DNA of 64,000 nt from Tubulanus polymorphus. Lineage: Eukaryota > Nemertea > Palaeonemertea > Tubulaniformes > Tubulanidae. Of the stretch, positions 11,213-64,000 are shown piece by piece. Under the pieces are notes generated by a model. That model did no database searches. It saw nothing but the letters and a program-made list of their open reading frames with translations, and had not been told where the DNA came from. The stretch's first letter is position 1. Each line of letters starts with the position of its first letter. The position numbers were made by a program, and so were the translations under genes. The stretch spans positions 4,092,001 through 4,156,000 of the forward strand of contig NC_134026.1 of the NCBI RefSeq assembly GCF_964204645.1. Direction: 5' to 3'.

Positions 11213-11264
11213 TCAAATCGAAGGAATCCTTGAACCCAGTGCGTACATGATAGACAGAAGTGAA

Positions 11265-12488
11265 ATGAATAACCCAACTGTGGCGGCTGCCATAGACAAT
11301 AGCACCGGACTTGTATCGTCAGAGAGTGGGAACTCCTCTGTTGCCAATGATTCTATCATGGAAAACTCGACTGGTGATATCACGGATGAACCATGGCTGC
11401 GTGGTATCGTTATACCGTTCTACGTAATAATATTCATACTTGGTATAACTGGTAATACGATCGTTGTGTTCGTCGTGGCACGGAACAAATCCATGCAAAC
11501 TATCACGAATATTTTCATTACAAACTTGGCTCTATCAGACATCATGATGTGTCTAATGGCAGTGCCTTTTACTCCCTTGGCGGCATTTATGGGTGACTGG
11601 ATATTCGGCGACACAATTTGTCACATCCTTCCGATGGCACTTGCTGTAAGTGTTTTCGTTTCTACGTTGACCTCGACTGCGATTGCCATTGATAGGTACT
11701 TCGTTATCGTTTACCCCTTTAAGCCGAGGATGAAAGTATGGATCTGTTTGCTATTGATCTTCTTTATTTGGATGATATCGACATCGATTTCTATGCCTTT
11801 GGCAATATATCAGAGAGTCGAATACAACGCCGCGAAGAACATTCAATTCTGCGGCGAAAAATGGCCGGATACGCAATCTCGGAAGTTCTTCACGTACACG
11901 ATCTTTATCCTTCAGTACGTGGCTCCGTGCACCGTCATCATATTTTGTTACCACGAAGTCTCCCGAGTTCTCAAAGAAAGGTCGCGCGCAAAAATCGGAA
12001 GCGGGAGTAAATCTCGGGAAAAAGAGATACTGGAAATCAAACGAAAAAGACGAACCAATAAAATGTTAATCGCTATGGTTGTCATTTTTATGGTATGTTG
12101 GATGCCTTTGAACGTAGTACATCTACTCTCAGAAAACATAACCAGCGTACAACACTGGTATTGGTTCACTTTGGTATTCTTCATAGCGCATATTATAGCT
12201 ATGAGCTCAACGATATATAATCCATTTTTATACGCCTGGATGAATGACAATTTCCGCAAGGAATTTAAGACAATTTTACCATGCCTGTTCGTGCTTCGTC
12301 CTCGCAGTAACATTAATGGGTCGACCCAATATTCAACCGTCGACACGGCGGTCACAAACGTCGAGCGATCGCCGATGAGAGAACGAAACGGCAGTAATAG
12401 CGGAAGTGGCAAGAGCGCGCACGCTCATTATGACCTTGACTCGGAGAAAGTTCACCTCAAAGTAACTGCCGACCACGAGGACGTGTAA
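11265..12488 (+). CDS. Rhodopsin-class neuropeptide receptor, NPY/NPF-receptor-like (copy 1)
   Basis: A seven-transmembrane G-protein-coupled receptor of 407 residues in one coding exon. Visible landmarks are the TM1 GN (63-64), the disulfide pair C119 (top of TM3) and C196 (ECL2, C-G-E-K-W-P), DRY at 143-145 in DRYFVIVYPF, CWMP at 278-281 in TM6, and NPFLY at 319-323 in TM7. A helix-8 cysteine near 340 could be palmitoylated. The extracellular N-terminus carries several N-x-S/T glycosylation sites. DRYFVIVYPFKPRM and ECL2 CxEKWP are typical of NPY/NPF and related RFamide-type receptors; the ligand cannot be read from sequence. I chose M at 11265 because a TATCGTTTCAG acceptor ends at 11211 and because this residue aligns with the first Met of copy 2 (MNNPTVA against MDKPTVA). 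The open frame continues upstream to 11133 without an ATG. An alternative ATG is at 11247. Confidence 0.93.
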   Translation: MNNPTVAAAIDNSTGLVSSESGNSSVANDSIMENSTGDITDEPWLRGIVIPFYVIIFILGITGNTIVVFVVARNKSMQTITNIFITNLALSDIMMCLMAVPFTPLAAFMGDWIFGDTICHILPMALAVSVFVSTLTSTAIAIDRYFVIVYPFKPRMKVWICLLLIFFIWMISTSISMPLAIYQRVEYNAAKNIQFCGEKWPDTQSRKFFTYTIFILQYVAPCTVIIFCYHEVSRVLKERSRAKIGSGSKSREKEILEIKRKRRTNKMLIAMVVIFMVCWMPLNVVHLLSENITSVQHWYWFTLVFFIAHIIAMSSTIYNPFLYAWMNDNFRKEFKTILPCLFVLRPRSNINGSTQYSTVDTAVTNVERSPMRERNGSNSGSGKSAHAHYDLDSEKVHLKVTADHEDV

Positions 12489-12718
12489 CTAGATTTCGAA
12501 ACGCGGCGTAAAATGGAACTGACACCGACGTCAGACAATGTACATCAATCGAATGTCTTGTCAGCACATTCTGTCCATTAAATTGAAGGATACGGATAAA
12601 TCATAATGAATGTACATTGAATTATCTTCCAATGAATTGCTGAACAGGCAAACCAAAAAAAAAAAACAAACAAAACTTAACATAGCAGACAAACCACGAA
12701 TGTACAGACGAATAATTT

Positions 12719-12728
12719 AATAAATAAA
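12719..12728 (+). terminator. Polyadenylation signals of receptor copy 1
   Basis: Two overlapping AATAAA hexamers lie about 230 bp after the receptor stop codon. A GT-rich segment (GTGTCTCTGTGATTTTTAGTG) follows them, as expected downstream of a cleavage site. Confidence 0.6.
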
Positions 12729-12829
12729 GTGTCTCTGTGATTTTTAGTGCTTTACTGTTGAATTTTGGTAGATTATCGTATGTTGTATGAACCTGTAAAG
12801 TGTTATAATATGAATAATATACGACCCGT

Positions 12830-15800
12830 AGTGAAAAATAAGGCGATCATGTATTCCTAGATGGGACGAACACTATCATTTTATTATGGTGCTATATGTA
12901 TTGACTAAAATACGAAATAACACTGTCACTGGATCTAGGAAAAGCGTGTTTCGCGACAACAACTGTGCTAGGTACCGAATTACACAAAACGGCAGCTTTT
13001 AGATGATATATCTGCCCTGTCTCGATATAGTATATAGTATATGATCACAGGTCGAGCCTCGGTGTTAAATGATGATCGAGGATGATATACGACACAAGAA
13101 TAGGTCGTTTTAGAATTGAAAATATGAATAAACGAAAGAATGTAAAAAATGCAATAATACCAACCGCAACTTAGTCATTATTTATGGAGATAAAAGAAGG
13201 AAATAAAAAAGAATGAAATTTTCTGAGTGCCCTATTATCCGCCATATTATCGAAGTAATCGTGAAAAGAATGATAAAAGATGATATGAGGTTATGTGTTT
13301 TTTTTTAATTTCATGTTCTTACCGTAACTCGTGTCGGCGTGAAATAAAACGTGTAGGCTACAAACATATTGATGATACGAGCATGTGAAGTTGAGAACAA
13401 AAAGCAGCTGTTTTGATAAATACAATAGTCGTTGGAGTATAAATCGCATTGTACCATGTGTAACTAATTCATATTTCACGCCTATGCCGTTTATGTTTGT
13501 ATAGAATTTTTTTTACGGTTATGACAACATCGTGATTTGGATGACGCGATGTGTTCACGTGTGCGGCGGCGGTCACGATATCTCGCATATTCTGTGACCG
13601 CTCGCACTATTTTGTGAAGATTTGGATGTTTTTTTTTTGTTTTAAGAAAAAAAGTAAGAAAATCATCGTCAATACCTATTTACCTACATTCCACCAATGA
13701 CATATTTCAGGTATTTACTTTGAAATGTACATGCATACATACAGTCATCTTTACTCTTTTTTATGTCTTATAGGGCCATTCTTTTCATGTACTCAGATAT
13801 TTGGGCATTATGTACTTTGACTAAGAACCAGTATGGGCCAATGATGATTTCAAGCGTTCGCTTTCATCGATTTATGTTTCCTATAAAGAAATACGCTTTG
13901 CTTTATGATGATTTCAGATGAAATCGCTATTGATAAAAGTATCGATTGAGTTTGATCGATGCTTCAGTTAAACCAGGTAATACGAGTTTATCGGTTTTCG
14001 TAACCCACGTGATCGGCTGTGAGTGAAATGAGGTTGTGATGACGGTTGCGATGACGTGGAGGGTGTGTAAGATATGTATTTGTGAGTAGTGAAATGAGGG
14101 TGTCGGTGCATTATCTTCCCAACGTCAAACGAATGAATGTGGGCTCAAAAGCTGGGTTTATGAGACAGATAGAACGCGGAAATGAATAGTGGGCGAGAAT
14201 GAGAAGTGAATGTTATGTGAAAGTGTGTTAAACGAATGTGTCATCGATCGAGAGTTTGATGTGAAAAGGGTGTCTATTTCCCAGACGTTTTTTAAAGTAA
14301 TGTTACCAAATTTGCCAAAAAATCCCAATTTGAAGACATGCAATATTTTCAATAAATTGTCTGTCAACGACGTTGATATCTTGTATCAATTGACTGCATA
14401 TCTCTTCTTTAGTTTTGTTACTATCGCTCGTTGAATAACGTAGTTTCATCAATATATCACTTTTCAGACCATTACGATTTTTGAAGTGTGTGGACGTGTG
14501 AATATCGTTGTACGTGCGCCTCATTGCTTGAGTGATTTTTTTGCCAGAAATATCTGATGAAACATATACCAAGTAATATTATTTATTCGCCAACGATGGT
14601 ATTTTATTAAAGAAAATGTAAATATCGAAAATAGCTCAGTGTTTCACAATATTAATTAGTCCCACAAAGCCTATAAAAATAGGTGAGCCTTGTTCGGGTG
14701 GTCACCTGGTTATTACTCGCATTGAGGATTCTATGAGGAAACCTCTGCTGTTTTCATCGACTGTGTATCGGAATGGTAATTGTGTAACTGCGTGAATCTC
14801 ATTGATTTGTGTGTGTGTGTGTGGAGTGAACAAGGTCGAACTTACGCGCCGATACTATTTTTGGCGATAGTGATTTATTCATGGGTTTCAGGTGATGACA
14901 GACGCATGAAAGAGTTACGCGTTAAGATTGAACTAATCTTAGAGAGTCGAAGTTATCCCTCGACTGTGGAACTGGATCTTGGGTCCTGTAGTGCATCTTC
15001 TCGGCTCAGAAAAAATCTCTGGTTTTTGTTGTTGTGCGGACTAGATAATTGGGGTGTGCTGTGTGAGTCTGCCGAGAAGGACTTAAGAGCCATTTTGTGT
15101 GAATGAATAAGACGTTTGATAGTGGTTTGTTCGTTTACTATCCATGTTGACATTTTATTGACGGCATGTTTGTTATTGTACGTATGATCGTTTGTTTCTG
15201 TTCACGTTATTTTCCCTATATTCGGCCATTTACAGTGCTCCGAGTAATATGCGCACAAAGCAACTCTCGTTTCCCGTATCCGGACTCCACTGTGTTTATG
15301 CCCCACGCCGAGCCTGACCAGTGGAGACCATCGATTCAGCCATCGATTCCAATATATACGCAACGTTATGCTATTACAGCTAATTGAATTTCCGTCAAGT
15401 TCACGCTCGAATTAATGGTTTTTGTTCGAATATTGTGAACTATTTGAATGCATCGTCGTCGAATGGATGTGGCCGCATTAGGTTTCTTGAACTGATTGTT
15501 GTGTGCGTGCGTTGCATGGTTTCGAATTCACCATCATCCTTTAACCATATTAATGACCTTAAGAAAAATATAATTGAATAAAAGATGTACAAATAAATAT
15601 ATATATATATATATATATAATACAATTTTGTAAATAGATTATGAGTTATTAATTATCATAGTTCGATTTTAGATTTTCAGTTGAATGTAGATTTGCTTTC
15701 GTGTTTCGTATAAGACAATTCGTACCGTACGAAATAACATCGCTTGTCTTTCTAGTTTATAAGTACTATATGATATGATATAAATAATATATATATATAT

Positions 15801-18580
15801 ATATATACATATATATAACATTAGAAAAATATCGCTTAACTTAAAACGGCGAAGAAATGTTAAAAAATGGTCGGACATCGATGTTTGATGAAAAAGTAAA
15901 TAGTATCAATCATTTAAGCGAACGTCGAATGTACGTTTATCATCTAACAGGTGCTTGGTAGCACACGTGCGTCACCGCCCTTATCATTGGACATAATGAA
16001 CGTTTCAAAAAAAAAATTAACAATAAACTACCATTAATACTTTCACATTGTTTGTGAAAATATCAGTGTTGTCGGATTATATTGAACTATATTCTGTATT
16101 AAAGCGAGTTATATGATACAATGAAGAGTTTTTGCTTTGTTTCTTTTGTCGGGAGACTTTTTCATTGACTGATAGCTCATAGTTTGATTTCCCAGATGTT
16201 TCCGGCATTGTGGTAGTCCATACAACGAATAATAAATCTATTCCGGTTTCTCTGTCTATAATCCAACTTCATCTACTCTCTCCTCACTATCATCAGGCCT
16301 ACGCACTTTCGAGGAGGTGCATTTAAAACGGGACACTGTTTCGTATTTTTTACGAAGGTTAAAGTGGTCGGAACGTGTCACATGCGCACGGAAGTATGGG
16401 AGCTCAATTGAGAACAATTCATTTCGAAAGAAAGTAAAATAAATAAATAGTTTGAAGCTAGATTTTAAAGTGAGGTGGTTTTGGCATTTATCATACCAAA
16501 TGATCAATATATTAGTAAGAAAACATTCGCGTGCCATTTCCTCGATTTGTCCGTGAAATGATACCGTCGAATGTTCATCCACATTAATATCAATATATGT
16601 ATGTATGTATATGCACCATCTATGTATATAAAATATTCATAACCAATTATTGATTATCGAATCATTTGAATCGCAACTTTGCAAATGCTCTCTTGAAATG
16701 AAATCTTGTCAGGTTTGAGTGTTATGAATGTTCAGGATTCGCAAACCTTTTTCAGCGTATTAAGTGATTACGGTACCATTTTGCTCAGAGCTGCGTCCGA
16801 CAGCTAGGGCATCGGCTAAATGCACTTTTCGAGATTAACCACCTAGAGCTTTAACTGTAGCTTTACCGCATCGTTCATCGTCCTGATGAGTAATATTAAT
16901 GGCGGTATCGCATGGTAAAAGATACCAGCAGGAAGTCGGCTAATGAAACAATCAATTGACCCCTTCTCATGCTTACCTGTCCGCAAATTATCATTGGCTA
17001 CAAAGTACTACCAGAACCCCCATAGTTAATCTATATTTTGCATATTTACATACGATCTTCAAAACAACTTGATTCTGAAGGCTTATAGCAGACCATGAAC
17101 TCTGGGTGTCCGAACAAACATAGGTTTGGGACCTTCAAATAGACTCAATGAAGCCAGTCTTTCAGGGATATAAGTTAAAGTCATAATTCGTATAGTTAAC
17201 TGAAATTTGCTGTAATTGATATTTTTTCCGCGAATGAGAGCAGCAGTAGAGACAGATTCTAAAGCAAAATACTAGAAAAACAATCCCCCAAGTCCGCACA
17301 AACAATCACTAATACCTTACGAATATTTATTATCAAAATGTCGAACTTTCAATCACAGTTATTTTTAAAATTTACTCGTGAAAGCATGGATTACGAGGAA
17401 TTCCATTTTACTGACGTGAACTACTTGTATTTCCTGTACTCATTAATTCTGAAAAGAACTGTGATTGGCAATTCTATGCCAACTGAATTTCTGTTTTTGT
17501 GTGTGTAGAGTGACTTGTACGTTCACCTTTGGGCTGGATGCAGGTTATAGTAATTGATACAGATTAAATGTATTTCTATTACGCTTGTCACTATAATTAA
17601 TAGGTAAATGCTACTTACATTAGAGAATATTTGCGACGATAAAAGGTGAACCAAAAAATCTCAGTGAAATAAATTTATATTATGGCAGTTCAATAACTTT
17701 ATGTCATCCTCTGGAGTTTTGAGATAATTGTTAATCTGCTGTGCTATAGATGTTCTCTAAGAATACGAGATTGTCGGGATTGAAAGAGTGGCATTCCCGC
17801 GTTTCTGACAATGAATTATCAGCAGATTTCGATCCCACAGGCGAACGATTAGTATCAAAGTGATGCTATACTAAAAATTCGTATCTAAACTCAATATTAG
17901 CAACATTTTCCAGTTGTGGGCTTCACAATCACCCGTGGTTTCCACGAGTTTTTAGTCTAGTAGACTTATTATCGTGCCATATTAGAATGTACTGTTTCAT
18001 CTTCAATGAAATCAATTAATTATCTTGATATGATTATCGATTTACCACATTTTACCACAATTCGACTTATTATCGTCGTAGTATCAATACCCCGACTTAT
18101 TCATCTCGGTAGATTTTGGTTACTCGACTTATTCATCACGAATTGCCCTGATTTTTATGAGTTACGAAATACGTTCGATAATATATGAACGAGACCGAAC
18201 CCCTAATTACCTACTGATGGGGAAGTTTTCTAAACTGAATTGTCGATGTCCATAAAAAAGACAGACCTGCCAATTACCTACGTACTTCACTGGAAACTAT
18301 CTAAACTTAAAGCCTGATATACCTCATTCATCCTGGGAAATCTGTCATATAAGAAATCAAGTGTATTTACACGTAAATTCAAAAAGTACTATGAGGTATC
18401 AAATATCATCGATGAATTAGCGTGTTGTCTAAAAGCTGGTCCGCATAATGCTTCCATTCTTATGAGATAAAATGGAATACTCGGTGAGCGAATTGCCGCA
18501 AGTATGTTGGCGTAAATTTTCAGCGCAAGATCTGCTGTTGCGATACTGAGATGTAGATTGGACCATGTTGATTTATATTC
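12830..18580. other. Intergenic region between the two receptor genes
   Basis: No third receptor copy or other conserved gene is visible. It holds small (TA)n runs at 15597-15620 and 15788-15813, an (ATGT)n run near 16596-16612, and a short segment at 14963-14975 matching one arm of the inverted-repeat element at 55.3-55.4 kb. Several 60-110-codon frames here look like chance. Confidence 0.4.
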
Positions 18581-18751
18581 TAAAATAGTTTGATGTTTAT
18601 TATGAACGCAATTCATCGCATCGGTCGTTGTATTGGGCTGTCATTTTATGTAACAATAACAACTATATGTACAATGACTGATGTGTTGATTGAATTGATT
18701 ATCATTTCAGTCACACCAACTTTGAAAGCATCGATTCACACAACAGTTGAG

Positions 18752-19906
18752 ATGGACAAACCAACTGTAGCAACAGCCACTGATAATGGCTCGAACCCAG
18801 TGATGGCTAACACGGCGGAAAACTCGACTGGTGATATCACGGATGAACCATGGCTGCGTGGTATCGTTATACCGTTCTACGTAATAATATTCATACTTGG
18901 TATAACTGGTAATACGATCGTTGTGTTCGTCGTGGCACGGAACAAATCCATGCAAACTATCACGAATATTTTCATTACAAACTTGGCTCTATCAGACATC
19001 ATGATGTGTCTAATGGCAGTGCCTTTTACTCCCTTGGCGGCATTTATGGGTGACTGGATATTCGGCGACACAATTTGTCACATCCTTCCAATGGCACTTG
19101 CTGTAAGTGTTTTCGTTTCAACTTTGACTTCAACTGCGATTGCCATAGATAGATATATTGTCATCATCTATCCCTTTAAGTCGAGAATGAAAGTATGGAC
19201 ATGTTTGCTATTGATCTTTTTCATTTGGACGACAGCGGCTTCGATTTCGATACCTTTAGCGATTTATCAAAAAGTTGATTACGACGACGAGAAAGGTATT
19301 AATCTATGCGGAGAGAATTGGCCGGGTACGCAATCTCGGAAGTTTTTCACGTACACGACCTTCATCTTACAGTACGTGGCCCCGTGCACCGTCATCACAT
19401 TTTGCTACTATCGCGTGTCCGGGGTTCTTAAAGAAAGATCACGTGCGAAAATCGGAAGCGGAAGTAAATCGAGGGAGAAAGAAATGATAGAAATCAAACG
19501 GAATCGCCGCATTAACAAAATGTTGATAGCTATGGTTGTCATTTTTATGGTATGTTGGATGCCATTGAACGCGGTCCATCTAGTAACGGAGAACATTAAC
19601 GACGTGCCAGTCTGGTTGTACACCTTGGTATTTTTCATTGCGCATATCATAGCTATGAGCTCGACCATATACAACCCGTTCTTATACGCTTGGATGAATG
19701 AAAACTTTCGCAAGGAGTTTAAGACAGTTTTATCGTGTTTATTCGTCGTACGTAGACGAGGTAACAATAACGGTTCTTCCCAGTGCTCGACCGATGACGT
19801 AATTACGAATGCCCCGCGTTCGCCGATAGCAAATGAACGTAATGCCCACTACCAAAGTGACTCGGAAACGGTCCATTTCACGCTCCTTAATGACCACGAA
19901 GTTTGA
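18752..19906 (+). CDS. Rhodopsin-class neuropeptide receptor, NPY/NPF-receptor-like (copy 2)
   Basis: A 384-residue tandem paralogue of the receptor 7.5 kb upstream, also in one coding exon. It keeps the TM3/ECL2 cysteine pair (ECL2 CGENWPG), DRY (in DRYIVIIYPF), CWMPLN in TM6 and NPFLY in TM7. The segment from the N-terminal glycosylation motif ENSTGD through the DRY motif is identical in protein to copy 1. The third intracellular loop, the TM5-TM7 halves and the tail have many substitutions. The C-terminal tail is shorter and ends DHEV where copy 1 ends DHEDV. Start chosen at 18752: it follows an ATCATTTCAG acceptor ending at 18710 and aligns with copy 1; the frame upstream of the acceptor is probably intron. 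Function, ligand and coupling are inferred from family only. Confidence 0.93.
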   Translation: MDKPTVATATDNGSNPVMANTAENSTGDITDEPWLRGIVIPFYVIIFILGITGNTIVVFVVARNKSMQTITNIFITNLALSDIMMCLMAVPFTPLAAFMGDWIFGDTICHILPMALAVSVFVSTLTSTAIAIDRYIVIIYPFKSRMKVWTCLLLIFFIWTTAASISIPLAIYQKVDYDDEKGINLCGENWPGTQSRKFFTYTTFILQYVAPCTVITFCYYRVSGVLKERSRAKIGSGSKSREKEMIEIKRNRRINKMLIAMVVIFMVCWMPLNAVHLVTENINDVPVWLYTLVFFIAHIIAMSSTIYNPFLYAWMNENFRKEFKTVLSCLFVVRRRGNNNGSSQCSTDDVITNAPRSPIANERNAHYQSDSETVHFTLLNDHEV

Positions 19907-27334: not shown

Positions 27335-29934
27335 ACTTTCCCGATACGTCAAAAATCCAATAGCGGTATAGATTTCGAGTACCTCGTGAAACCTCTCAGC
27401 GCGTTTTTCATTTCATTGCTTTGCCGCGCGCGGTGAAGGTACAATTCAAATTTCTACATCTCTTACGAATATATCATTAACACCATCCGCCCGCGTGGCG
27501 TGTAATTCAATCACGTCGTGCATATCGATGTCGATACTTGGTAAACATCTTTCAAAAGCATATCAATCTAGTTTTACCATCGATAAAAAGTAATATTGGT
27601 AATATACATATATACGACGTATTTCTTTGATCATTCAGAAAACGCTATGATATTTAGAATTTGTCGTGTTTGTGTCCATGAGTGATGTATGATATAGGGG
27701 ATATATGCGTCGTATAAACCGTATAAATTCATAACGAACTTTGAGTCTTCCGATGACGGCGAATCTTGCATACATATACATATATATATGTACATATTCA
27801 CACATCCGAGAACAAACATATCGTTAGTATCCACTCAGGATGGTTTCATTGATTTATGTCGTACTTCGTTTTGTTTGCTTGTCCGGGTAGTTATAGCGAG
27901 GTGTTTGTGGCTAACTGATCTCTCCGCATATATACATCGCCGCCGCCGTGAAGATTCATGATTATTTGTATTTAATCCTGATTTCATATATGTGATAGAT
28001 ATGAGCAATTAACCGCTACTGTCATTTGGTTTCCCTGCCAAGCTACACATGCGATACAAGAAAACTAACTTGAAAGTCTATTGACGGCTTGAAAATTGTA
28101 CATATACTGTTTATTGCTTAACATTATCAACAATAAATAATAAGTATGATATAATGTTTGGATCAAGTCAAATTGAATTTGAATATACCGACAATTGAAT
28201 TGAATTGACCGGTAACCAGTCTAACCGGGCTAGACTATTTCCTTCATCTATTAATGGGCGGTTGTGTTGCCGGCGACTGGAAGACCTCTTTACACTACGT
28301 CGACTTGAATAATAGGAAAATCTGCCATTAATATCGTAATTCAAGCAATCCAAGAACGGCTCAGTCGGGGTCATAAAATATAGAGATGCGCCTGTATCGT
28401 TTGAGAGTGTATCACCCACGCCCTGAACCGACAAGTCAATAGTGATAAAATACCGCGCCTGAGTGCGACGTGAACACGCAAATAAAGTTTCGAATCGTCG
28501 CTTCGTTTTAATCAGATTGTCATGTACTGGCAAAATAAGCCGTTCTTTAATTTCAATAATTTACCTCGCTATGTGTTTTTACGGGCACAATAACGTCCAT
28601 CGTCGCACCGTAGCCATTTTGTGACGAAGATGGATCTCACTCGAGATAACTCGCCAAATTTAGCCACTATATTCTGCCTGGATGAAATCTAATTCATTCA
28701 AAGGTTTTTTTCCTGAATTGCATTTTATCTATCTGGCGTCTGCCGCAGAATACATGATGGATGTAATTGAATTAATTCGCCCTTTTAATCAACGGTTTAA
28801 TCACCGTTAGTGTATTTTTCTTGTTGTGTGACATTTTGCTTTAAACGACCATCGATAAGGCTCATTGTATGTATGAATAAATTTACCCTCCGGGGGGTAA
28901 GCGAAGGGAGAAATCAAGGAAAACACTTGAAAATATGTGTTTAGAATATTCTAAGGGGTATATATGACTATTCTAATGTGTCGGGAGACATTGTGATGAT
29001 CGGGGTCTGCTACCTTTAAAGGCCAGAGGGTTTCATTTCTTGTAGTAGCTCTCGAAAGATCGGAAATATTTGCGCCGTAGTCTTATATTAATCAATTCCA
29101 CTCCCCCAAGGCCTAAACCCTGTAAACATGACCAGTGTTATACATAGATACGTATCGTTTATTGCTTCGCGCCTATCAAATCAGGGATGTGTAATGATTA
29201 GCCCGACCGGTGGCCTAAACAAGATGATAATGACAAATCGAGTAAATGACATTGCCGTGCGTTAGACAACGTACCTCCCCTTGAGCCTGTTGATCGTTTG
29301 TGTCCGTACTCGGAAAAAAGAAATAAAGGCTTGACAGAAATGATGATTGTGGTATGTTATTGCGGATTGTGTCGACGAACTAAATAAGCCATATGATGTT
29401 GTTCACGGCATTCTCGGCCGCCGTAATCCAGTCGAATTTTCATGCCGTGTTAACCGGTTTTCTGGGAATATGTATAATTATATACCATTTTATGCACCTT
29501 CCGATCGCACTTTCGCCGGAATAACGACTTCTTAAAATGTATCGTGACATTTTCGGTTGATTTATTTTCATAAATCCTCACATTGCTTCCTCTTATCATC
29601 CGGCATTAAACAGTGACGTCAGTCGGCACTGGACGTTCGAATAACGAGGGTGATAAATACAAATCGTTCGCCCTGGATAGTTTACATTCCAATATATTTT
29701 ACACGAATAAAAAGAAGCTAATCCTAACGACGATTCTGGTCAATTTTTCACGTCAGAATGCTGAAAGCCTTATCGGGAAATCACTCTCGTCAGACACTTC
29801 GTTAAACTGACTGATACTGATTTGATTTATTCAAATGTAATCAAATGTTAAACGTGGTACAGGTTGAATGTGGTCAAAATGCGGTATAGCATCTAATTAA
29901 AAAAGCATTTAATTTAACTTAATACTATTTAATG

Positions 29935-30089
<155 letters not shown>

Positions 30090-45269: not shown

Positions 45270-47180
45270 CGTTCGGACAGCGCTTGGATCAATCTACATG
45301 CTGCCAAACGCCACTTACCTGCCTAGTCTGAACGTGATGCACGACCAATGCAAAAAAAACTATGAATATAGATTAGTAGAGACGCTTGCGGTCAAATCGC
45401 TCCGATATTAAAACTATCCGCATTTACTTAGGCAACCGCGTATCGGTCTCAATTCGATGAAAACATTTTGGCGCATTCTCGCAATAATATCGCCGAGGTA
45501 TTTTCGTGATTCGTTGAAATGTTCTTGTTCAGTAGACGAGTGGTAAAAATATTTTTATTATTATATAGTTTATCAAAATAACATATATATGTCAGATATA
45601 TGTCTATTCGTGATCCAGTAATATCGTGGATATTTACATTACGATACTTCAGGCCAATACCGCCAATAGTTTCCTAATGTAAATTGAAAGAAAAATCAAT
45701 GCAAATCATTTTCTTCCATTTTGTACAAATTTCCATTCTCTTCATCTCTCTTTCTTCGTTTTATTCTGTAAAAAGGTGTATATACTATTTACAACTACAT
45801 GTAGTATTTTCGAGTTCTACATGATTATGTACAGCATAGTTTAGGTTTACGGAACCGCTGCAATACGTAGTTCGCGACATTCATCGCCGAGTTGTATCGG
45901 CTTCTTGCTTTACAAGCTTTAGCTAACAAACTCTACCAGCAGACGAACGAAAGTTCATGTAATCATGTTTAAAAAACGAAATCATGACCAACAAAAATTA
46001 TTTCTTCGGACATTCTAAAACGGTTCTATTTATGGCCACACATTCCAAGTCTGGCATATCAATACGAATATGATAACCGACCGAGTTGATAGATAAATTA
46101 CATCAGGTGACTTCGTGGCTTGATTTTGACTTCGGGTCGACGTCGACCTAATCAGAGAAAATGTGGATCATTCGCAGAATGTCCGAAGATGAGGTCGAAA
46201 TCTAACTCGAAACTTTCCAATTCATCGACGATCTAATAACGATAGTGAATTAAATTATTCCGATGCAGGTCTCATGTTATTTATTTTTGTACGGTCAAAG
46301 AAAGCTTGATTATTTGTTTAACATTATTTGTTAACTAAAAGTCGATGCTGTAAGATTTAACTTTTTTGTATCCAGTAAACTTATAAGTGAATAAAACATT
46401 AAATGTTTTACATTCCTGTTCGGCGTCTTTTTATTTCATTCAGGCGCAACTAGACAACGACACGAGCGAGGAAGTTGTTTTAGAGCGAGGAAATGGTTGT
46501 AGGCTACAAGAAAAATGGAACGATTCACGCAGTTTCGAAGGAAAACATCAAGCTCCAGCGAATGTATCGTCCTTATTTAATGATTTCACACTTCGGAGAT
46601 GGAAAATTGTCTTTTCTTCAAAATCAATTTCATGCCTTCTATAAAATCTTTGGTGAACTGGTAATACGTCCGCTCAGAGATATTGTCAGATATATAACGA
46701 ACAATCCCTGCATTGCCAGAGCGCATAAGTGAAAACCGTGACGTGAATATTATCATTTTGTTTTTCTAAATTCAAATTATCACCGTCAGTGTCAGCCGAG
46801 TGTGAATATTCTAAAGTCAGTGTAAAGAATCTCCGGAAAGAAGCGTCTGATATGAGTGAGTGTGTGTGACGTGACAATGACTTCGGTCATCAGTGACAAG
46901 TAAACTGCTGATAACCGACGTGTGTCCTCATATCAATTACGAACGTCCTACATAGTTCTAAGTGCTTTTTGCTAAAACCAGTACTTCGAGACCTCTCATA
47001 TATAACACTCAAAGAATACATCGACCTCTGAGTGGGTGACATTCTCCCAAGATCAAAATGATTCTTACGAAAAAATGCATCAATTACATTTGTCCATTCG
47101 TTGTCCGCTGAATTAATTTCCTTCAAATGTGACTGTTTAAGGCGGCATAGGATTGCGATATTCTAAATGACCAAAATAAT
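45270..47180. other. Downstream flank of the pacifastin-like gene
   Basis: No clear gene. A possible AATAAA lies at 46389. A sequence with an acceptor-like TTTATTTCATTCAG at about 46442 followed by an open frame was considered as an alternative 3' exon, but it adds no matching cysteines. A CCGAAGATGA...CTCGAAAC motif lies at 46183-46216. Confidence 0.35.
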
Positions 47181-47187
47181 CTTATAC

Positions 47188-47312
<125 letters not shown>

Positions 47313-52569: not shown

Positions 52570-55500
52570 ATGGATATTTCACCGGATAAACAACAACAGC
52601 ATCATGTTAACGATATCAGTACAGCGGGACATGTATCAATCAGCCTGCCGTTACCACCTGGATTACAGCCAGCCATACCTACCTCGGACCACATGGGTAA
52701 TGAACCGACGGGGAATGATGTAAATGGAACAGTTATACAACAAGCTCAACTACAAATAGATACCGTTAAAGGGTAGGTCCTTTAAAAGTTCAATCTGCTC
52801 TGAATCGGATAGATATTCTTGCTCCAATTTTTTGGATACCGGTATGTTCGAGAACAGAATTAAAGCGTCGCGAATCATAGCATGCTGTGAAATACAGGTC
52901 ATCTATAGTCAGCGTTCAAATTCAAATGATGGCTTGAATAATGCGAGAGGAGGCTGCCATGAATTCAAATGATATCTGTTATCTTTGTTTATCTTGAATT
53001 TGGCGTGATATGTATAAGTGTAGCGGTATATTTTTTGTAATTGTAGAGTCATGTGTATGAAAGTTGGTGACACTGTGTATCAAATGCCTCTAGCGATTAA
53101 CACTGATGGATTGGAACCAGGTAAATGCTTAATCTCTTCCTCTTAAAATCTCCTGTACCAGTATGAACAACAAAATTGCCAAGTGATTTGGTCCATTGAC
53201 TGTTATTGAGTAATATAAAAAACTACGAAGACTTGAAAAAAGATATCAGCCTGGCAGTAAGTGATTTCATAGCGTATTTCAAAGAGGTGACCATCTTTCA
53301 TGGAAATGGATCCTTCTGAAGTCTCTCCTGCGTAAATGTTAATGAGCGAATATTGATTTTGTTTTAGGGTCTGTGCTGAGTAATATTGACAATGAACTAC
53401 TGACGTCTCAAATGGCCACTGCGCCACATGAACCGTCAGCGTTAACAATAGCGGAAGATGTCAGTTTGGATGGAAGTTCAAGTGAACAAGGAACATTGAA
53501 GACAACTTCAGCTGAATCAATGATGAACTACACAAATATCAACGCTGTAATAGAACAAACACCCCAAACAGAAACCGTTGTACGTCTTATATCGTCTTTG
53601 ATTAGAAATATAATTCCTGTTTAGAAATGTAATTGAATGTAGATGCAGCATTTTAGAAGTTTATCGTCGTACATTCTCAGTATTTCTCTTCTTTCGGCGT
53701 TAAATCTAGAAAAGAAAAGGAGGCTGGCCTAAAGGCAAGAAAAGAAGGAAAGATATAACAGACCCAAATGCACCTAAAGCTCCAAATACGGGGTTTGTAT
53801 TTTATTATCGACAAAATGATATACTATTAAGCAGCTCTATACAAGTTGGAGTTCCATCAGTCGTTTTATGTCATTATTTCATTTAATTATTTGATGAATG
53901 TTTCATTAAGGTATGTGCTTTTTGCTCTTGACCGTCGGAAAATAGTATCGGCTCTAAGACCTGAGTTATCATTTTCTCAAGTAACCAAAATCCTTGGAAG
54001 TGAATGGTCATCACTACCGCCCACAGAAAAACAGGTAGACTCTCCTTGTCTAGGCCAATTTCTGATAGAATGTCCTGATTCACTCGAGATTTCATTGCAG
54101 AAATACATCGACCGCGGCGAGGCTGACAAAAAGAAGTATATCAAAGATTTAGAAATATACCAGAAATCAGAAGCTTACCAAGAGTATTTAAAGAAGAAAA
54201 AGCAGAAAAGTATCGCAGGTATATTTTCATATATACGCAGTATTTTATTTCTAGTTCGTTACAAAATTGATTCATCTCGAAATAAACTATGATATAATAT
54301 TTTGATTCTGAAGAAGGTGGCGATGCTTCTTATCTGGACTTGGGTGCTCAGGTAATAATAGACAAAATGGTCTAGGAATTCGCCGTCATTTTACCATTCA
54401 CTGATTTCACTGAGCTCTCACTTTTCTCAAAAATTGTTTCGCCAGGATTCGGATCTGCTCTATTGTAAAGTCTGTGATAAACTGTTCAGCTCTCAGCACA
54501 ATAAAAAAGAGCACATGTTTGGGAAGCAACATCTAAATGCTGTGAAAGGTAAGCATCATTTCTCTAATTCTCTATTTAGATTTGTTATACCTTTGTTACA
54601 ATAAAGCACGTGACTACAACATTGATTAAAATCAAAAGCACCATTCCAGAATTTATTGAAGCCGGTGAAACCAAGTTCCACGTATTTACACGAAAACTTG
54701 AAGAGTATTTTATGCATCTTTTAATTAAAGGTGAATTCGAACAAGAGTTACATAATCAGGAAACTGTGACCATCAATTCCGATGATAGTCAAGATTCGGA
54801 TGATGAAGGCGTGAATGTTGGTCGATTCGTAAACAAATTTTTAGCGAAGAACCTGGGTAATTATTAACATATCATTTATATTTAAAAAAAAAAACTTCAA
54901 AATCTTCTTTATTGTCCAGTGTCTTTATATCTGTAGACATTGTTTAAAGTAACAAATATATGTACATACATTTAGCCCTTGTTTATACAGTTCTGTTTAA
55001 AAAGTCAATATTCTTCTTGTTATGATTATTTCCAGATGTCCCTACTAAGATGTTTATACCCGGTACATGTAATAATCTGGATTTTGATAATAGGAAACCC
55101 ATTTAATACAACGATTTTCTCTGTTGCTCACAACATTTGTTTTGACAAGGTTTCATTGTAGTTGGTTCTAAAAACTTTGTTTTTGGCTTCCTGAATCAAG
55201 TTTTCTTCTAATCACTTTGCAGAAAGAGAAATGGAAATTCGACAATTACAACGTACGCTCAAAATCGAACGAACAAAACACATTAATCTTTGCAAACAAG
55301 TCACCGAAATGCGGGTAGGTGGAATAATTGATAACCAGGGTCCAGTTCCACAGTTCCGAGTTAAGATTCAACTCTGAGTTAACTCATTGAAAATGAACTA
55401 ACTTTAACTCAGAGTTAACTCTAACTCACAACTGTGGAACTGGGTCTAGGTTTACTAAAGCTACATTAAGTACGAGTTTCTTCGATATACTATTCATGAT

Positions 55501-56337: not shown

Positions 56338-64000
<7,663 letters not shown>

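Follow-up and report, generated by a model that had tools for sequence, protein, structure and literature searches.

Two gene pairs serve as comparisons for the locus described here: CCR2 and CCR5, mammalian chemokine receptor genes that are adjacent and have uninterrupted coding regions, and fog-2 and ftr-1 of Caenorhabditis elegans, whose products are not known to be receptors. CCR2/CCR5 is the closest receptor case found: conversion is reported there among paralogous rhodopsin-class peptide receptors (Vazquez-Salat et al. 2007, cited in PMC2720389). CCR2 and CCR5 are said to evolve in concert in multiple lineages (PMC2720389), whereas the pair studied here, copies A and B, shows one tract in one genome and is neuropeptide-receptor-like. 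According to a Caenorhabditis review, fog-2 and ftr-1 resemble A and B in being adjacent paralogues of moderate identity with short tracts; their identity is 82% overall and 77% in one converted tract (PMC3966223). Several differences also emerge. The direction of conversion and natural alleles are known for fog-2/ftr-1, and the tabulated tracts are at most 145 bp (PMC3966223), compared with 273-303 bp in A and B. Moreover, conversion there was probably aided by about 70 bp of neighbouring perfect identity (PMC3966223), whereas no such stretch was seen at A and B, where the longest perfect run outside the tract is 35 bp; this counts against conversion. A third comparison comes from the GOT1 paralogues of Tigriopus californicus. 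Divergence is uneven along that pair, as it is along A and B, and sliding-window and GENECONV analyses were used there to infer converted segments (PMC3728101). That work dealt with many events in several populations, whereas here there is one tract in one genome.

How does a tract of 273-303 bp sit among those already described? Surviving tracts in Caenorhabditis aggregate towards 50-200 nt, and in one genome-wide study they range from 12 to 2,958 bp, according to the same Caenorhabditis review (PMC3966223). Another review places conversion mainly above 80% identity, with cases possible at lower values, and gives about 200 bp as the efficient segment in yeast (PMC3924818). By this yardstick, the roughly 80% core identity of A and B lies at the lower end of the main range, which counts against conversion (PMC3924818). 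In length and arrangement the A/B tract agrees with published cases, which favours conversion. With its 273-303 bp and a core identity of 80%, it is within the known range and towards its diverged end. Judging by titles and the opening lines of abstracts, none of the open-licence papers that the literature search returned describes conversion between tandem neuropeptide receptors.

The tandem receptor genes

Copies A and B lie in the window, by which we mean the whole 64,000-nucleotide stretch of Tubulanus polymorphus DNA that was analysed. All positions are those of the window unless a contig is named.

11265..12488, + strand: copy A, an intact peptide GPCR gene of 407 aa whose coding region is one open frame (7tm_1, E 8.2e-57)
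18752..19906, + strand: copy B, the direct tandem paralogue of copy A, an intact peptide GPCR gene of 384 aa in one open frame (7tm_1, E 9.3e-56)

Copy A was read from the ATG that corresponds by homology to the start codon of copy B, in a frame that is open from 11133, and 6,263 bp separate the two coding regions. Both products are rhodopsin-class receptors by their match to Pfam 7tm_1. Along with this domain, they carry the conserved transmembrane motifs GN, LxxxD, DRY, MPLN and NPFLY, which mark the class. The top PDB match of copy A (query 11250-12488) was the prolactin-releasing peptide receptor, at 213 bits, and that of copy B was neuropeptide Y receptor type 2, at 202 bits. We take the pair to resemble the fly sNPF receptor. 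The PDB matches, together with motifs, suggest that A and B are perhaps sNPF/PrRP-type receptors, an identification that serves as a lead only.

Downstream of the tract described below, dN/dS is about 0.11, and it is likewise 0.11 in the receptor core; the pair is therefore under purifying selection. With region limits drawn from motifs, replacements outside the tract proved dense in the upstream N-terminus (13 of 22 codons), ECL2 (10 of 27), ECL3 (6 of 11) and the C-tail (23 of 59); few fall in TM7-H8 (2 of 35). Such a pattern is expected of receptors in general, and conversion needs no special role in it.

Across the genome, many of the 102 rhodopsin-class matches appear to carry the bulk of the 7TM core within a single open frame of at least 300 aa, which suggests that intron-poor peptide receptors may be common. 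The insect odorant-receptor family 7tm_6 had only three matches in the assembly, the best with an E of 2.9e-7. Another neighbouring pair of single-frame GPCRs was found at C2:30024500-30029500, both on the minus strand. At 36% protein identity it was too diverged to use as a control, and we rejected it. A blastn search run jointly over this record and five others gave six hits, each of at most 128 bp and none labelled by record.

The near-identical block and its edges

The first-pass annotation had reported a block of 303 bp shared by the two copies with a single mismatch. We recovered exactly this block, at the same positions in both genes.

11360..11662, + strand: probable conversion tract in copy A; the match is perfect over 273 bp, up to 11632, and extends to 303 bp if one mismatch is allowed
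18817..19119, + strand: probable conversion tract in copy B, aligned with that in A over the 303 bp; a DNA search found the block at two places

The one difference is a G at 11633 against an A at 19090, and the longest run without mismatch is 273 bp. Could such a run arise by chance? When the 1149 aligned coding columns were shuffled 10,000 times, neither a run of 273 bp with no mismatch nor one of 303 bp with a single mismatch was ever reached; the longest zero-mismatch run in the shuffles was 62. Because plain base shuffles ignore amino-acid constraint, we also shuffled silent codons alone, and again none of 10,000 shuffles reached the observed run. These shuffles and the change-point fit given below served as stand-ins for GENECONV.

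Besides the last part of the extracellular N-terminus, the tract takes in TM1, TM2, ECL1 and roughly the first half of TM3. It stops in residue 133, ten residues ahead of the DRY motif (D143-R-Y), a point that we take, by the usual numbering, to be about half-way along TM3. The extent first given for it, TM1-TM3, thus holds for TM1 and TM2, while TM3 is only about half included.

Silent sites had been described as homogenised across the block, and our counts agree. Taking as informative those silent codons that encode the same, degenerate amino acid in both copies, we found a difference at 1 of 92 in the block and at 84 of 186 downstream. At the downstream silent rate, the probability of one difference or fewer among 92 is 7.6e-23. 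With the fast tail left out (the rest of TM3 to TM7-H8), 61 of 150 silent codons differ, and the probability for the block is still about 1e-19. The 383 aligned codons in all tell the same story when divided by region. Over the 100 codons of the block, dS is 0.014 (1 difference over 70.7 silent sites) and dN is 0. The 22 poorly aligned codons upstream give a dS of 1.75 and a dN of 0.46, and the 261 codons downstream, fast C-tail included, give 1.28 and 0.14. In the downstream receptor core (204 codons, 11664-12278), 122 of 612 bases differ (80.1% identity), with a dS of 0.96 and a dN of 0.11. The first 100 codons past the tract have a dS of 0.75, and identity drops to 61% in the last 56 codons, where silent sites are saturated. 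Uniformly low silent divergence along the genes, which had been named as the pattern that would tell against conversion, is thus not what we found, given the step from 0.014 inside the block to 0.75 next to it and 0.96 in the core. We dropped a view of the pair as unusually diverged; it had rested on 76% downstream identity with the fast tail included, and the core figures replace it.

Might conservation of the protein account for the block? None of its 100 columns carries a replacement, whereas about 22 replacements were predicted from matched columns, and the zero extends to 14 codons of the N-terminal tail ahead of TM1. Downstream, 62 of 255 columns are replaced. The alignment behind the matching held A, B and 18 genome frames (18 of the 100 other rhodopsin-class matches), each taken from stop to stop around the best hit. 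Several of these frames are single exons and one does not include the block; we left out any column represented by fewer than six residues. Because about 22 replacements were predicted and none was seen, amino-acid constraint is insufficient for the block, which bears out the earlier remark that selection on protein alone is not the expected cause.

The 3' edge of the block is sharp, with differences at 11663, 11666, 11672, 11675, 11690, 11696 and on. A one-interval change-point fit (within 3 lnL) confined the 3' edge to 11652-11662. For the 5' edge it gave 11330-11370, where the value of 11330 stems from a gap in the codon alignment.

11331..11360, + strand: ten codons of copy A without counterpart in copy B in the protein alignment, adjoining the 5' edge of the tract; the gap is slightly shifted in the DNA alignment

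The 5' edge is the weaker evidence because it adjoins this 30-nt length difference; beyond it, 22 codons align, poorly, with 28 of 66 bases differing. It may just mark where alignable homology stops. Since good alignment gives out at the 5' edge, sharpness is tested by the 3' edge only, a point against conversion. Hence, the block first called sharp-edged keeps that description on its 3' side, while its 5' edge does not lie within well-aligned sequence. As for the single mismatch, 11633 may be a later mutation, or it may be the true 3' limit, with the next 29 bases matching by chance. We mildly favour the longer tract, to 11662 (p about 0.04).

A second tract had been proposed in TM6.

12072..12106, + strand: identical 35-bp stretch in TM6, partner 19529-19563 (7 silent codons, silent shuffle p 0.745)

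For this stretch, plain shuffling of the downstream bases gave a p of 0.0076, which we discount because such shuffles ignore protein constraint. Its run of seven identical silent codons is matched by another at 11733-11759 and, at the silent shuffle value listed, is unremarkable; the stretch does not hold up as a second tract. Silent-codon shuffles of the pair yielded no second silent-identity run above chance. A low-divergence scan downstream picked out the interval 11669-12277 (0 of 200 codon shuffles), and we rejected it as a tract: it is nearly the whole core and is separated only from the fast tail.

Origin of the block

We conclude that ectopic gene conversion very probably accounts best for the block. 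Silent and replacement divergence both collapse locally, the 3' edge is sharp, and two copies were found in the assembly; these observations support the first reading of the block as a recent event of this kind. We infer the event and its repair mechanism along the following lines. An older tandem duplication would have produced two single-frame peptide receptors, and A and B would then have diverged to about 80% base identity, with a core dS near 1. Much later, a short stretch would have been copied non-reciprocally from one copy into the other (interlocus conversion), presumably by double-strand break repair templated by the neighbouring paralogue. TM1, TM2 and ECL1 would have been overwritten, together with the last part of the N-terminus and the first half of TM3. 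For dS accumulated since the event, the 95% upper bound is 0.047 if the tract is 273 bp with no silent change, or 0.067 if it is 303 bp with one; assuming equal silent rates, this amounts to about 5-7% of the value in the core, 0.96. With regard to donor direction, GC3 does not separate the copies (0.46/0.45 in the block, 0.535/0.523 downstream). The four next best-scoring genome matches are unfit to polarise silent sites because they are only 31-37% identical. A search for outgroups in prokaryote and virus collections, where no relative was to be expected, gave none. The process proposed here is a well-known and ordinary one, and it leaves knowledge of gene conversion unchanged.

With 35 bp as the longest perfect run outside the tract, either a better-matched segment existed beforehand or earlier rounds of conversion had kept the block similar. 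Perhaps repeated rounds of homogenisation, beginning after the duplication, have kept the TM1-TM3 segment from ever reaching the divergence of its flanks, and the present tract is the latest round? This variant is compatible with conversion as the best explanation and is possible, though we lean against it. Stretches of identity aid conversion, and in a core only about 80% identical a block that was already similar would be the easier substrate; a dS of 0.75 next to the tract, somewhat lower than the 0.96 of the core, would also be compatible with an older exchange. However, no older tract stands out, no other silent-identity run exceeds chance, and silent differences restart right at the 3' edge. 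A more elaborate form of the idea is modular concerted evolution, in which the TM1-TM3 half would be re-copied repeatedly and selection for shared signalling or dimerisation would keep it alike in both receptors, with the N-terminus, ECL2, ECL3 and tail kept distinct for specificity of ligand or regulation. We consider it doubtful. The first-pass annotation had described TM1-TM3 as being homogenised while the rest keeps diverging; one tract was indeed observed, but an ongoing process goes beyond what one tract conveys.

Could selection at the base level, through an overlapping element, a structured RNA or an exonic enhancer, have frozen the block in both copies? The receptor region that contains the block is indeed conserved somewhat better than the downstream part (mean column entropy 2.14 and 2.32, respectively), and the comparison covers a single genome. 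However, replacement sites are identical too, where about 22 changes were expected, and the sharp 3' edge sits in mid-TM3. In addition, Rfam gave no match at gathering score in the window, folding of the block RNA was ordinary (z-score -0.32), and no minus-strand ORF of at least 100 aa overlaps the block. We therefore regard base-level constraint as barely plausible. It is also very unlikely that an assembly or polishing artefact replaced the sequence of one copy with that of the other. The listed places with TTAGGG arrays include some no more than about 65 kb from an end of C1, C4 and C7, a sign of a chromosome-scale assembly, and reads from copies that differ by about 20% should not normally be placed in the wrong copy. 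Assembly collapse is unlikely, since the window has no N, the contig spans 31.9 Mb, sequence beyond the coding regions shows no match between the copies, and the DNA search found the block at two places only. Lastly, the direct tandem orientation permits unequal exchange, and the block could stem from unequal crossing over via a transient three-copy array, then deletion. This would require two exchanges flanking the same 303 bp as well as the loss of a copy. The DNA search of the assembly found two copies of the block and no third copy or remnant among the best candidates scored, though a lost copy need leave none. We find this route hardly conceivable.

Gene conversion thus remains our preferred reading, and it has a practical consequence. 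Whole-gene dS values or trees of A and B would be biased by the tract, so the segment should be excluded when dating the duplication. The locus also offers a clear single-genome case of a conversion tract in receptor paralogues whose silent sites are well diverged elsewhere.

Other features of the window and assembly

TTAGGG arrays in the assembly gave 545 forward and 1089 reverse overlapping matches, and the places listed lie near ends of C1, C4 and C7. Together with the scarcity of 7tm_6 matches, these arrays indicate that the genome is probably not an insect's, and an initial guess of a hymenopteran was dropped on this evidence. A search of the assembly for COX1 gave no match. Within the window, self-complementary repeat tracts occupy 29934-30089 and 47174-47309 and are mutually identical over 119 bases. 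At 60596-60834 is a low-complexity tandem array, and one plus-strand frame through it reads as a long leucine-rich run. A 199-aa ORF at 44085-44684 matches the pacifastin-inhibitor family PF05375 (E 3.2e-7). Frames at 53846-54292 and 58770-59123 match, respectively, an HMG box (E 3.3e-8) and a protein-tyrosine-phosphatase, the latter at 20.1 bits, just below the curated cut-off of 20.9.
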